A stretch of DNA of 49,964 nucleotides, taken from contig SVJD01000012.1 in NCBI GenBank assembly GCA_015069165.1, positions 1-49,964 on the forward strand, given 5' to 3'. This DNA comes from Oscillospiraceae bacterium (GTDB lineage Bacteria > Bacillota > Clostridia > UBA1212 > UBA1255). Below, in pieces: positions 3,466-19,447 of the stretch. A model generated the notes under the pieces. The model was not told where the DNA came from and made no database searches. It worked only from the letters and a program-made list of their open reading frames with translations. The first letter of the stretch is position 1; each line of letters begins with the position of its first letter. The position numbers and the translations under genes are program-made.

Positions 3466-3777
3466 TCCATGTCGGAACAAGCGCAATCAATTTAAACCCA
3501 AATAGAGTACGGTAAAAATTTCAGTAAAAACTGCAAAGGTAACACGTGTAATGCACGAATAAAAAAGATTGTGTGGAACTGTCTTGATTTCATTCGCGAA
3601 AACAGAAGATTTAAGGAATTTGAAGAAATTTTAAATTAATATGCAGAAAAAACATGATGCGTTCTCCCCTTGACAACCCTTTTGCTATCGCATACAATAA
3701 TCACAGAATCAAAGAAATCAAGCAACCAAGAATCTTAAATATTCTAACAGAAGTTGCATATAATAAGGAGGGCAAGT
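3466..3777. other. Intergenic stretch with a possible decayed reading frame
   Basis: This stretch of about 312 bases has no convincing gene. One open frame without a start codon runs on the + strand from about 3496 to the TAA at 3637-3639 and ends in a protein-like string (DFIRENRRFKEFEEILN). It could be the tail of a decayed gene, but I recognise no family. A 51-codon frame at 3654-3809 overlaps the next gene out of frame and looks accidental. The region ends with AAGGAGGG (3765-3772), the ribosome site of the antitoxin gene. Confidence 0.3.
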
Positions 3778-4158
3778 ATGTCTGCATCAACAGTTTCAAA
3801 AAAAGGTGATTTAATTATGGAAAGAAAAATTGTTAGCATATCTTCAAAGAGACAAATAACTATTCCTCAAAAGTTTTTTGAAGCTCTCCGCTTTACAAAC
3901 GAAGCCGAATGTGTAATACGAGGAAACGAACTCGTAATTCGTCCCGCCCGCACAAATTCCGGCGGTGAATTTGCCGAGGAAATCCTCGCAGAACTCATAA
4001 AAAAAGGTTTATCCGGTGATGAATTATTAAAAGAATTCAAATCAATACAAGCTAAAATTCGTCCCGCCATAGAAGCAATAATTTCAGAAGCTGATGAAGT
4101 CGCTTCAGGTAGTGGTGAATATTACACCTACGATGACATCTTCGGCTCGGAGGATTAA
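3778..4158 (+). CDS. AbrB/MazE-fold antitoxin with C-terminal extension
   Basis: A 126-residue DNA-binding antitoxin candidate. I chose ATG 3778 because AAGGAGGG ends 5 bases before it; a frame upstream lacks such a site. Residues 18-60 form a SpoVT/AbrB swapped-hairpin domain (KIVSISSKRQITIPQKFF, then ECVIRGNELVIRP). A C-terminal helical arm of about 65 residues ends in an acidic tail (YYTYDDIFGSED), likely the part that wraps the toxin. It lies 5 bases before a RelE/ParE-type toxin gene, so the two form a type II toxin-antitoxin operon. Autorepression through the AbrB domain is expected from family knowledge, not seen. Confidence 0.8.
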   Translation: MSASTVSKKGDLIMERKIVSISSKRQITIPQKFFEALRFTNEAECVIRGNELVIRPARTNSGGEFAEEILAELIKKGLSGDELLKEFKSIQAKIRPAIEAIISEADEVASGSGEYYTYDDIFGSED

Positions 4159-4163
4159 AGAAA

Positions 4164-4457
4164 ATGACAGAAGTTAGATTCTTACCTCCTGCGGCTAAAT
4201 TTCTCAAAAAATGCAAAGACAAAAAGCTTAAATTGCTTTACAAACAAGCAGTTGACAAAATCAAAGAAGACCACACCATTGGTGAAGTAAAAAGCGGTGA
4301 TCTTGCCGGTATATATGGTTATGACATTTATTATAATAATACAAATTACGAGCTTGCCTACCGTGTAGAGTATTTTGACGATAAAATAATAGTCGTAATC
4401 ATGGCAGGCACTCGCGAAAACTTTTACAACGAGCTAAAAAGGTATATGAAAAGCTAA
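4164..4457 (+). CDS. RelE/ParE-family toxin
   Basis: A 97-residue small basic protein starting at ATG 4164, with its GGAGGA site inside the last codons of the antitoxin gene. The layout is that of RelE/ParE toxins: two N-terminal helices rich in Lys (AAKFLKKCKDKKLKLLYKQ), then beta-strands with a G-x-Y-G-Y-D-I-Y turn, a Y-E-L-A-Y-R-V-E-Y strand, and a final strand IIVVIMAGTREN followed by a Tyr-containing helix. RelE members cleave mRNA in the ribosome and ParE members block gyrase; the sequence alone does not tell which applies. Pairing a RelE-fold toxin with an AbrB-fold antitoxin is a known mixed arrangement. Confidence 0.8.
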   Translation: MTEVRFLPPAAKFLKKCKDKKLKLLYKQAVDKIKEDHTIGEVKSGDLAGIYGYDIYYNNTNYELAYRVEYFDDKIIVVIMAGTRENFYNELKRYMKS

Positions 4458-9777: not shown

Positions 9778-9841
9778 TTTTATTTCCTCCGTAACAAATA
9801 CTTTTTAGTTTTTTATATTATCTCTTTGTTTGTTTAATTCA

Positions 9842-9880
9842 TTATGCGCCGCAGCGCCACCATCGTTTATATAAAATCAT
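9842..9880 (-). CDS. Trp-rich leader peptide upstream of trpB
   Basis: A 12-codon ORF, MILYKRWWRCGA, with ATG at 9880 and TAA at 9842-9844. A near-perfect ribosome site (GGGAGGT, 9886-9892) stands 5 bases before the ATG. Tandem Trp codons at positions 7-8 match the logic of attenuator peptides such as E. coli TrpL (GWWRTS). It lies after the T-box terminator and about 60 bases before the trpB start, so it is transcribed only on readthrough. The order T-box, Trp-rich leader ORF, gene is that of the Bacillus subtilis anti-TRAP (rtpA) operon. I see no terminator between it and trpB, so any control would be on translation, mRNA stability or Rho. Confidence 0.7.
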   Translation of the reverse strand: MILYKRWWRCGA

Positions 9881-9897
9881 TTTTTACCTCCCGTTTT

Positions 9898-9938
9898 CAA
9901 AAAAAAATCCTTGACAGAAATTATCTTTCTGTCAAGGA
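9898..9938 (-). terminator. T-box regulated terminator
   Basis: On the - strand TCCTTGACAGAAA (9938-9926) and its exact complement (9920-9908) form a 13-base-pair stem with a 5-base loop, followed by a U-run (9907-9898). It competes with the T-box antiterminator. Confidence 0.92.
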
Positions 9939-10194
9939 CGAATAATACTCAAATCATCCGCGGTACCACCTTGATTCACGATAGCCACTCGTGCACTTAG
10001 CAGGATACAAAAGATATCCCCGACATTTATACGCTTGCCTTCAGCGTCGCAGAATACTCTGTGCAAAACACATTTGACTGCGCCCTCAGCGGTCCATTTG
10101 ACAACTTGTTTCTTACCTGACTCTCAGCACTGCAGGCTCTCTGTAAAGGCATCATTGCCGTTATCTCCGCCTCAACGGTTTAACTATTAAGTTC
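9898..10194 (-). promoter_or_regulatory. T-box leader responding to tRNA-Trp
   Basis: Read on the - strand, about 297 bases of leader precede trpB. They contain the distal stem I signature (AGAGAGCCTGCAGTGCTGAGAG), a specifier region AAATGGACCGCTGAGG with the Trp codon UGG at 10094-10096, the conserved T-box sequence AAGGTGGTACCGCGG (9958-9972), and the competing terminator. Uncharged tRNA-Trp would pair with UGG and with the T-box bulge, stabilise the antiterminator and allow trpB transcription. The specifier assignment comes from its place just before ACC in the stem I closing region, and agrees with the trpB gene below. Confidence 0.92.
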
Positions 10195-10200
10195 TCGTTT

Positions 10201-10229
10201 AATATACTCTGTTATGTTTTTTTTGTCAA
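10201..10229 (-). promoter_or_regulatory. Sigma-A promoter of the trpB operon
   Basis: On the - strand TTGACA (10229-10224) and TATATT (10206-10201) are 17 bases apart, giving a start near 10194, just before the T-box stem I. Confidence 0.8.
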
Positions 10230-17851: not shown

Positions 17852-19447
17852 TTAATTCTTAGCTGCATCGGGAGGCAGTATTTTTATCGTATTGATAAAT
17901 TCCTCGTTGTTTTTTGTTTTAAGCATTTTGCTTACTATCATCTCTGTAACATCTGCAGTACCTAAGTTAGACATAGCTCTGCGAATCGAGAACACACTGT
18001 TTAACTCTTTCTCTGTAAGAAGTAATTCTTCTTTTCTTGTTCCCGATTTATTTATATCTATTGCGGGGAAAACTCTCTTTTCGGAAAGCTTTCTGTCAAG
18101 ATGAAGCTCCATATTACCTGTTCCTTTGAATTCTTCAAATATAACATCGTCCATCTTGCTGCCCGTATCTATAAGCGCCGTTGCCACAATAGTCAAACTT
18201 CCGCCGCCGCGAATATTTCTTGCGGCACCGAAAAATCTCTTGGGATTATAAAGTGCTCCCGGATCAAGACCTCCTGACAAAGACCTGCCTGTAGGTGCAA
18301 TTGTTATGTTGTAGGCTCTTGCAAGACGTGTCAAACTATCCATAAGAATCACAACATCTTTCCCCTGCTCTACAAGTCTTTTTGAACGCTCAAACACCAT
18401 TTCGGATACCTTTATGTGTTTTTCCGGCATTTCGTCGAAAGTTGATGAAATAACATCGCCTTGTACAGACTCTCGCATATCAGTAACTTCTTCAGGGCGT
18501 TCGTCTATTAAAAGTACAATCAAATGTACATCAGGGTGATTCTCTGTTATGGCATTGGCAATTTTTTTAAGTAACACCGTTTTACCTGCTTTAGGCGGCG
18601 AAACAATCATTCCGCGCTGACCTTTTCCGATAGGCGCAATCAAGTCTATTAAACGTGTTGAAAGCTCATTGCTTTGTGTTTCCAAAGTAAGCTTCTCATC
18701 AGGATAAATAGGTGTAAGTGACTCAAACGGTCTTCTCTTTAAAGCTACATCAATAGGGTCATCGTTTATTGTATTTATAAAGCAAAGTGCGTGATACTTA
18801 TCATTTTCTCTTTGCATTTTGCTCTTTCCCTTTATTTTATCGCCCGTTTTAAGTCCAAATTTCCTTATAAGCGTAGGCGGAACATATATATCTTTACTGC
18901 CTGACAAATAATTGTTTACACGCAAGAAACCGTAACCTTCCGCCAAAATTTCAAGTAAGCCTTCTGCATCTTCTGTGTTATCTTGAATTTTCGGTTCTTC
19001 TTTTACAGGTTCGTTAGGCTGAACTGTTTCTTCCGTTACAGGCTGTGCGCTTTCTGCGGGAACTTCTGCTTTTTCTGTGTTTTCGGTTTCATTTTCTGCT
19101 TTTACACCCTTGCGGCCTCTTTTTGACGCGGTCGCACGTTTATTGCGTTTTTCTTTTACGGCATCTGCACGATTTTTCTTTTTCTTCTCGTCGGAAGCCT
19201 GCGGTGTCTCGGAATCTTTGCCTTCCGGCTTCGGAGGTGCTTCTGCGGTAACTTCTTCGCTCGGAGCTTCCTTTGCTTCGGGTTCTTCTTTTACTTCTTC
19301 GCTTTGCTGCTTTTCTGCCTTTTCAACATTCAAAATAGCATCAATCAAAGCTTGCTTGCTCATTTTTGTCATAGACTTAATGCCCAACATTTTACCTATG
19401 TAGCGCAAATCGTCGATTTTCTTCTTCTTCAGTTCCTGAAGATCCAT
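17852..19447 (-). CDS. rho: Transcription termination factor Rho with a long charged insertion
   Basis: A 531-residue Rho, about 100 residues longer than the Bacillus type. The Rho_N domain is residues 1-40. A disordered segment rich in Glu, Lys, Ala and Pro (about 42-165), with a basic block [20 protein letters not shown], separates it from the cold-shock RNA-binding domain (about 168-235, [10 protein letters not shown]). The ATPase core has Walker A SPPKAGKT, Walker [16 protein letters not shown], and the Q/R-loop regions [21 protein letters not shown]. The core is complete, so activity is expected. Insertions of this kind in other phyla bind RNA or drive condensates. It heads an operon with the deacetylase, pssA and psd. 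Confidence 0.95.

Follow-up and report, generated by a model that had tools for sequence, protein, structure and literature searches.

A conserved short reading frame with a CGA-UGG codon pair lies between a tRNA-Trp T-box and an orphan trpB gene in Clostridia

The window (the whole stretch of 49,964 nucleotides that was analysed) carries on its minus strand a trpB gene headed by a tRNA-Trp T-box and, behind the T-box, by a short open reading frame (ORF) with Trp codons. Is this ORF an accident of one genome, or does it give the cell a second reading of its tryptophan supply, and if so, how would that reading reach trpB? The order promoter, T-box, terminator, GGGAGGT, ORF, 51-nt spacer, GGAGG and trpB was read directly from the sequence (Table 1), and the stop codon of the leader ORF lies 64 nt from the trpB start. 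The T-box, UGG specifier and 13-pair terminator described in a first-pass annotation of this DNA were all recovered in place by sequence reading and cmscan, and the 12-codon ORF, with its ribosome site 5 nt before the ATG, was confirmed by reading the sequence.

Table 1. Coordinates of trpB and its leader features in the window
Feature	Position	Strand	Basis or detail
σA-like promoter	10201-10229	-	TTGACA 10229-10224, 17 nt, TATATT 10206-10201; read from sequence
T-box leader RF00230, tRNA-Trp type	9931-10184	-	cmscan
Specifier codon UGG (Trp)	10094-10096	-	Aligned to RF00230 specifier loop
T-box motif AGGUGGUACCGCGG	9958-9971	-	Sequence and cmscan alignment
Intrinsic terminator	9899-9938	-	13-pair stem 9938-9926/9920-9908, T run 9907-9899
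Shine-Dalgarno GGGAGGT of leader ORF	9886-9892	-	5 nt upstream of ORF ATG
Leader ORF MILYKRWWRCGA*, 12 codons	9842-9880	-	Family M-x-(L/I)-L-(T/S/A)-K-R-W-R
Core codons CGA-UGG-UGG	9857-9865	-	9865-9863, 9862-9860, 9859-9857
Spacer, leader stop to trpB ribosome site	9791-9841	-	Unstructured, A-rich, G-poor
Shine-Dalgarno GGAGG of trpB	9786-9790	-	Read from sequence
trpB, orphan tryptophan synthase beta chain, 406 aa	8557-9777	-	Pfam PALP 140 bits

The T-box matched RF00230 over the full model (positions 1-219 of 219) with 81.7 bits and an E-value of 4e-18 (cmscan, E-value threshold; window 10184-9931, minus strand). The curated Rfam cut-off for this family is 93 bits, so the element is missed by a default Rfam scan. 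Its specifier codes for Trp, in agreement with the trpB gene downstream, and the specifier region CAAATGGACCGC recurs in relatives. The terminator stem and its T run follow directly 3' of the T-box motif; the stem forms in the computed fold, and from their layout terminator and antiterminator appear to be mutually exclusive. Six T-boxes were found in the window genome, and since only that of trpB was recognised as being of the Trp type, the leader was rejected as part of a general Trp regulon.

Neither TrpA nor TrpC was found in the window genome, and a trpA match was absent from 37 of the 42 related genomes. As both trpA and trpC are missing, TrpB probably makes Trp from indole and serine, that is, by indole salvage. 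The controlled gene had been called biosynthetic; trpB does lie downstream, and this description is better replaced by that of an orphan enzyme, probably for salvage, outside any trp operon. TrpB contains no Trp residue in the window or in 87 of 88 relatives. As the enzyme is free of Trp, all Trp codons up to the end of trpB lie in the leader, and only the leader would be sensitive to a lack of this amino acid.

Conservation of the ORF among relatives, proposed as a check in the first-pass annotation, was examined in 80 further trpB loci (GTDB genomes), by searching 391 genomes of the class for the pattern, and in extra regions; 93 different clostridial trpB leaders were left once duplicates had been removed. 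In 64 of these 93, a short ORF with the core (L/I)-L-(T/S/A)-K-R-W-R was kept at the same position; one of the 64 is the nearest relative (G002/L002, TrpB 93% identical), in which the T-box, the terminator, AGGAGG and MKKIWWRQKPHNIN occupy the same place. Typical leader peptides are MLLTKRWRSLN, MFILTKRWRKVK, MVLLTKRW and MKRW, and Massiliimalia timonensis, a relative in culture, has MLFTKRWRCLK (L065). The strong Shine-Dalgarno (SD) sequence of the ORF is conserved among relatives, and an SD-preceded ATG shared the frame of the core in 54 cases; the other two frames gave 0 and 4. CGATGG was the most widespread hexamer in the last 200 nt of the leaders (62/93); GGAGGA, the Shine-Dalgarno word, was present in 59, and letter permutations of CGATGG occurred in a mean of 4.5 leaders each. 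Judged from these alignments, the ORF of the window is far above chance and is no accident of one genome. After clustering at 90% TrpB identity it was present in 26 of the 33 clusters, and on the TrpB tree its distribution required 22 parsimony changes, at least 8 of them forced by well-supported branches. Because its absences are scattered over the tree, the ORF looks old and repeatedly lost or moved. Searches of the leader peptides against NCBIfam (six of the longer peptides) and Pfam (five) gave no family match, and in the open-licence full texts searched no paper was found on a TKRWR peptide in a relevant context or on a T-box with a leader ORF at trpB.

T-box and ORF occurred together in 63 leaders, the T-box alone in 14, the ORF alone in 1 and neither in 14 (Fisher 4e-8, for leaders that are related). 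The lone ORF encodes MMMKRW (L049), and the T-box there seems to have been lost. In a further leader (L053) the T-box has apparently been lost as well, and LTKRWW is retained without an ATG start, as though decaying. Leaders with the T-box only (for example L081, L082 and L071) have the same T-box and orphan trpB but neither ORF nor spacer, and in most of them 75-135 nt separate the T-box motif from trpB. The 14 leaders of this kind speak against a sensor and mean that the ORF is dispensable. In the 391 clostridial genomes, each in-frame short [T/S/A]KRW ORF with readable downstream DNA preceded trpB. In 299 genomes from the rest of the phylum, outside Clostridia, the pattern matched 12 times, no more often than the reversed control, and no match preceded trpB. 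Within this sampling the leader-ORF motif is specific to trpB.

Tandem Trp codons had been taken as the key feature of the ORF. They were found in only 4 of the 63 aligned motif copies (the window, L002, L007 and L118), and the rule is instead a single UGG after CGA, with L-(T/S/A)-K before it. CGA is lost in two of these four, which may hint that a second UGG substitutes for it, though on few copies, of which the window and L002 form a sister pair. The Trp codon was UGG in 63/63 copies. Arg preceded it in 60, and 59 of these 60 Arg codons were CGA; as a share of all Arg codons, CGA reached 2.6% within these trpB genes themselves and roughly 7.5% over 726 ORFs. Most copies had been aligned via CGATGG, and a separate screen therefore deserves mention, which required only [KRQ][RKSCI]W in an SD-led ORF and found, beyond the CGA cores, L002, L007, L038, L040 and the second ORFs of L105 and L116. 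As this screen made no demand for CGA, the CGA share is not a product of the search. The codon after UGG was Arg in 48/63 copies, always CGN and never AGA or AGG, and the base following UGG was C or U in 62/63 compared with 39% in genes. Upstream of the Arg, in the 63 copies, stood K (54, plus R in 6), T/S/A (53), L (48) and L/I (48). Third codon positions were free (0.2-0.4 bit) at codons -4, -3, -2 and +1, and codons 0 and W were fixed. Free third positions before the Trp are the pattern expected from selection at the level of the amino acid. The conserved residues before the Trp and the fixed Arg codon exceed the needs of a simple hungry-codon leader; a single UGG would in itself be a weak hungry-codon signal, and this counts against a sensor.

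Amino-acid conservation of this kind is what the main rival explanation draws on, namely a nascent-chain arrest similar to that of TnaC, in which (L/I)-L-(T/S/A)-K-R-W in the upper tunnel would stall the ribosome at high free Trp or indole and trpB output would fall. Residues -4 to -1 are conserved with free third positions, the Trp codon is the seventh or eighth in 51/63 copies, and indole is the likely substrate of a TrpB without trpA or trpC. A chain of only 6-8 residues at the Trp is short for a ligand pocket, however, and CGA-UGG is kept without L-T-K in GRRWR (L017), GVRWR (L041), KERWR (L062) and ATRWR (L067). A peptide code also leaves the fixed Arg codon unexplained, and in most leaders the stop is too distant from the trpB ribosome site for direct blockage. 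Arrest by free Trp or indole is accordingly regarded as unlikely.

The fixed Arg codon can also be accounted for by a word in the RNA or DNA, AARCGAUGGYG, whose reader would be a protein, a small RNA or the GCCA end of tRNA-Trp (complement UGGY), with the frame secondary. This would explain why the Arg codon is fixed at all three letters and why Y and G are kept after UGG though R, W, C or a stop result. The T-box base opposite the tRNA discriminator (UGGU or UGGC; window 9971-9958 and relatives) weakly tracked the base after the leader UGG: T was commoner there where the T-box has UGGU (4/11 vs 4/50, Fisher 0.03, in related species), as a word read by the tRNA end might predict. The frame, SD and start codon are nevertheless conserved, and the remaining positions show the variation typical of codons. 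Base pairing between the conserved word and other parts of its own leader was tried as a candidate and rejected, since shuffled words paired equally well. We consider a word of this type improbable.

The tRNA-Arg anticodons found were ACG, CCG, TCT and CCT, and no tRNA-Arg with a TCG anticodon was found in the window genome (89% complete), so that CGA is presumably decoded by inosine-adenine wobble. Such decoding is inefficient in E. coli, and decoding is slowed by a 3' pyrimidine. In yeast, I-A wobble at a P-site CGA weakens the decoding step that follows (PMC6301793). The idea that genes avoid CGA-UGG was considered and dropped: the pair was seen 0/45 times in a first sample, and in a larger one at 6/64 Arg codons before UGG (4.8 expected). 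That the pair is not avoided in genes counts against a sensor, and the pair may not be strongly inhibitory.

Between the leader ORF and trpB the first-pass annotation had seen no attenuator hairpin, and this was borne out. From the ORF to 40 nt inside trpB no such hairpin was detected in 62 leaders, with a mean fold z-score of +0.2 relative to shuffled sequences. The predicted accessibility of the trpB ribosome site was 0.44 in the free leader vs 0.48 with a ribosome placed on UGG. With folds no better than shuffled and accessibility about equal (about 62 leaders), SD sequestration and attenuation were rejected. A frameshift at CGA-UGG joining the leader to trpB was also rejected, the stops in the +1 and -1 frames having no common pattern. 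The distance from the leader stop to trpB in relatives was -134 to +4, mostly -30 to -70, and any mechanism must tolerate this wide variation. In two leaders (L006 and L015) the ORF reaches the trpB start with an ATGA overlap, and there, unlike in other leaders, translational coupling would be possible. A second terminator-like hairpin (CTCCTTTGACA...TCAAAGGAGTTTTT) was noted downstream of the T-box terminator and ahead of the leader ORF in L007, L009, L013, L015, L016, L038, L065 and L078; in L015 and L040 the 3' arm of the second hairpin includes the SD sequence of the leader ORF itself.

In the absence of a structure to switch, translation, mRNA decay and Rho had been named as possible outputs, and Rho is the least likely of these. 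In a Rho attenuation, a ribosome terminating at the leader stop would expose the spacer and Rho would stop transcription before or in trpB, and a ribosome stalled at UGG would hide the spacer. The pooled spacers of the relatives contain 45% A, 14% C, 9% G and 33% T; they are thus G-poor with C above G, and a rho gene is present in the window (17852-19447, minus strand), encoding, to judge from its translation, a Rho with a long charged N-terminal extension. Many of the fragments that Rho terminates in B. subtilis either show a high C content relative to G over more than 150 nt or are rich in T (PMC13323073). Unlike these, the spacers are A-rich and mostly 15-90 nt long, and a rut-like spacer was not found in about 62 leaders. 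Species with runaway transcription have purine-rich genes, and their ribosomes lag so far behind the polymerase that they cannot guide it (PMC13323073). The genes of the window are 55% purine, which suggests trailing ribosomes and disfavours both coupled attenuation and Rho. The probability of a Rho mechanism is put very low.

With no RNA structure present to switch, an effect on the lifetime of the message is favoured. The conserved CGA-UGG suggests a second check of the tryptophan supply via the ribosome, and we infer that a cis-acting leader peptide would stall at this pair when Trp-tRNA is short and raise trpB output, likeliest by shielding the mRNA from RNase J; this reading is given an even chance. 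Uncharged tRNA-Trp would bind the T-box, as in the established family, and transcription would pass the terminator. A ribosome would then initiate on the leader ORF, reach CGA-UGG and pause at UGG while Trp-tRNA is scarce, with CGA in its P site read by the wobble tRNA-Arg(ICG) and M-x-L-T-K-R attached. The leader would be cut above the terminator, and the paused ribosome would protect the body of the mRNA from 5'-to-3' decay by RNase J; on return of Trp-tRNA the ribosome would finish and leave, and the message would decay fast. In B. subtilis, a ribosome stalled near the 5' end stabilises long downstream mRNA, and the thrS leader, which is controlled by tRNA-mediated antitermination, is cut above its terminator by RNases J and Y (PMC3997798). 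The window genome has an RNase J gene, and TTATTCG, which resembles the thrS cut site, is present in 35 of the 64 leaders.

Protection of the message could also follow from leader translation per se: a strong ribosome site and a short ORF behind the terminator would raise trpB expression by shielding the 5' end or opening it, and the Trp codon would be no sensor. The conserved strong SD fits this explanation, and in B. subtilis a strong SD close to the 5' end stabilises an mRNA even when it is untranslated (PMC3997798). It needs neither UGG in 63/63 nor CGA in 59/60 copies, though, nor a restriction to a Trp enzyme, and is rated rather improbable, less so than the word AARCGAUGGYG.

The leader resembles several known systems in part. 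That of the rtpA (yczA, anti-TRAP) operon of Bacillus subtilis has three Trp codons, and its stop adjoins the downstream ribosome site and blocks translation directly. Both leaders place a Trp T-box first, then a short SD-led ORF with Trp codons and then the controlled gene, and share the logic that tRNA-Trp charging is read first by an RNA and then by a ribosome, a step that for trpB would be the pause proposed above. The trpB leader differs in usually having one UGG behind a fixed CGA rather than three Trp codons, in a stop usually 30-70 nt upstream and not next to the ribosome site, in control of the enzyme gene trpB instead of anti-TRAP, and in its wide clostridial distribution. The rtpA precedent, invoked in the first-pass annotation, is a real one, to judge from the title of Chen and Yanofsky (2003), as cited in PMC11255114; the two-layer principle is known from this operon (Chen and Yanofsky 2003, 2004, cited in the same paper), and the two-layer logic itself is for this reason not new.

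The E. coli trpL leader likewise has Trp codons in a leader peptide ahead of a Trp gene, but the trpB leaders have no competing hairpins or terminator after the ORF (62 leaders), in contrast to trpL and other transcription attenuators, and they conserve flanking residues and one Arg codon. TnaC, a peptide of 24 residues with a fixed W-to-P spacing, a proline at the stop codon and a rut site, is also a short leader peptide with a key Trp ahead of a gene of indole or Trp metabolism; the trpB leaders, by contrast, reach the Trp after 7-8 residues and have neither a Pro at a fixed place nor a rut site. By the features compared, the trpB leader is neither a trpL-type attenuator nor a TnaC. Leaders of the ermC type, short ORFs behind a strong SD, stall the ribosome early and protect the downstream mRNA, and both the early stall and the protection are proposed for trpB; here the signal would be Trp-tRNA and not a drug, and no SD-sequestering stem-loop precedes trpB.

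More tentatively, and with a doubt that we would not understate, the leader may represent a new class of amino-acid sensor, in which one hungry codon is sensitised by its neighbours (a P-site CGA decoded by I-A wobble, an A-site UGG and a 3' pyrimidine) and forms a stand-alone layer behind a T-box, setting the lifetime of the trpB message in a lineage that has trpB as its sole Trp enzyme and uses the indole of other microbes. If the stalling mechanism holds, many gut Clostridia would as a rule control a salvage enzyme by sensing tRNA-Trp twice, as one regulatory operon of Bacillus is known to do, and the leaders would be a natural, strongly conserved bacterial case in which the identity of a codon pair, and not the amino acid alone, is the regulatory signal. 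It would also be relevant to the tuning of Trp supply in indole-dependent gut bacteria. Some sixty natural variants, among them WW in place of CGA-W, two motif copies, two ORFs and ORFs of 4 codons, make the mechanism directly testable.

Duplications of the motif were observed in three leaders. Two ORFs stand in a row in L105 and L116, MFIFSKRWQGLKHE followed by MYILSKCWRTGKVLKKTK or ...KEIK, and in L048 the motif occurs twice within one ORF (MLLTKRWRSLLTKRWRGLNESEN); these natural duplications would permit dose tests. Elsewhere in the window, at 3754-4457, an AbrB/MazE-like protein is followed by a RelE/ParE-like protein, and the two resemble, from their translations only, a type II toxin-antitoxin pair.
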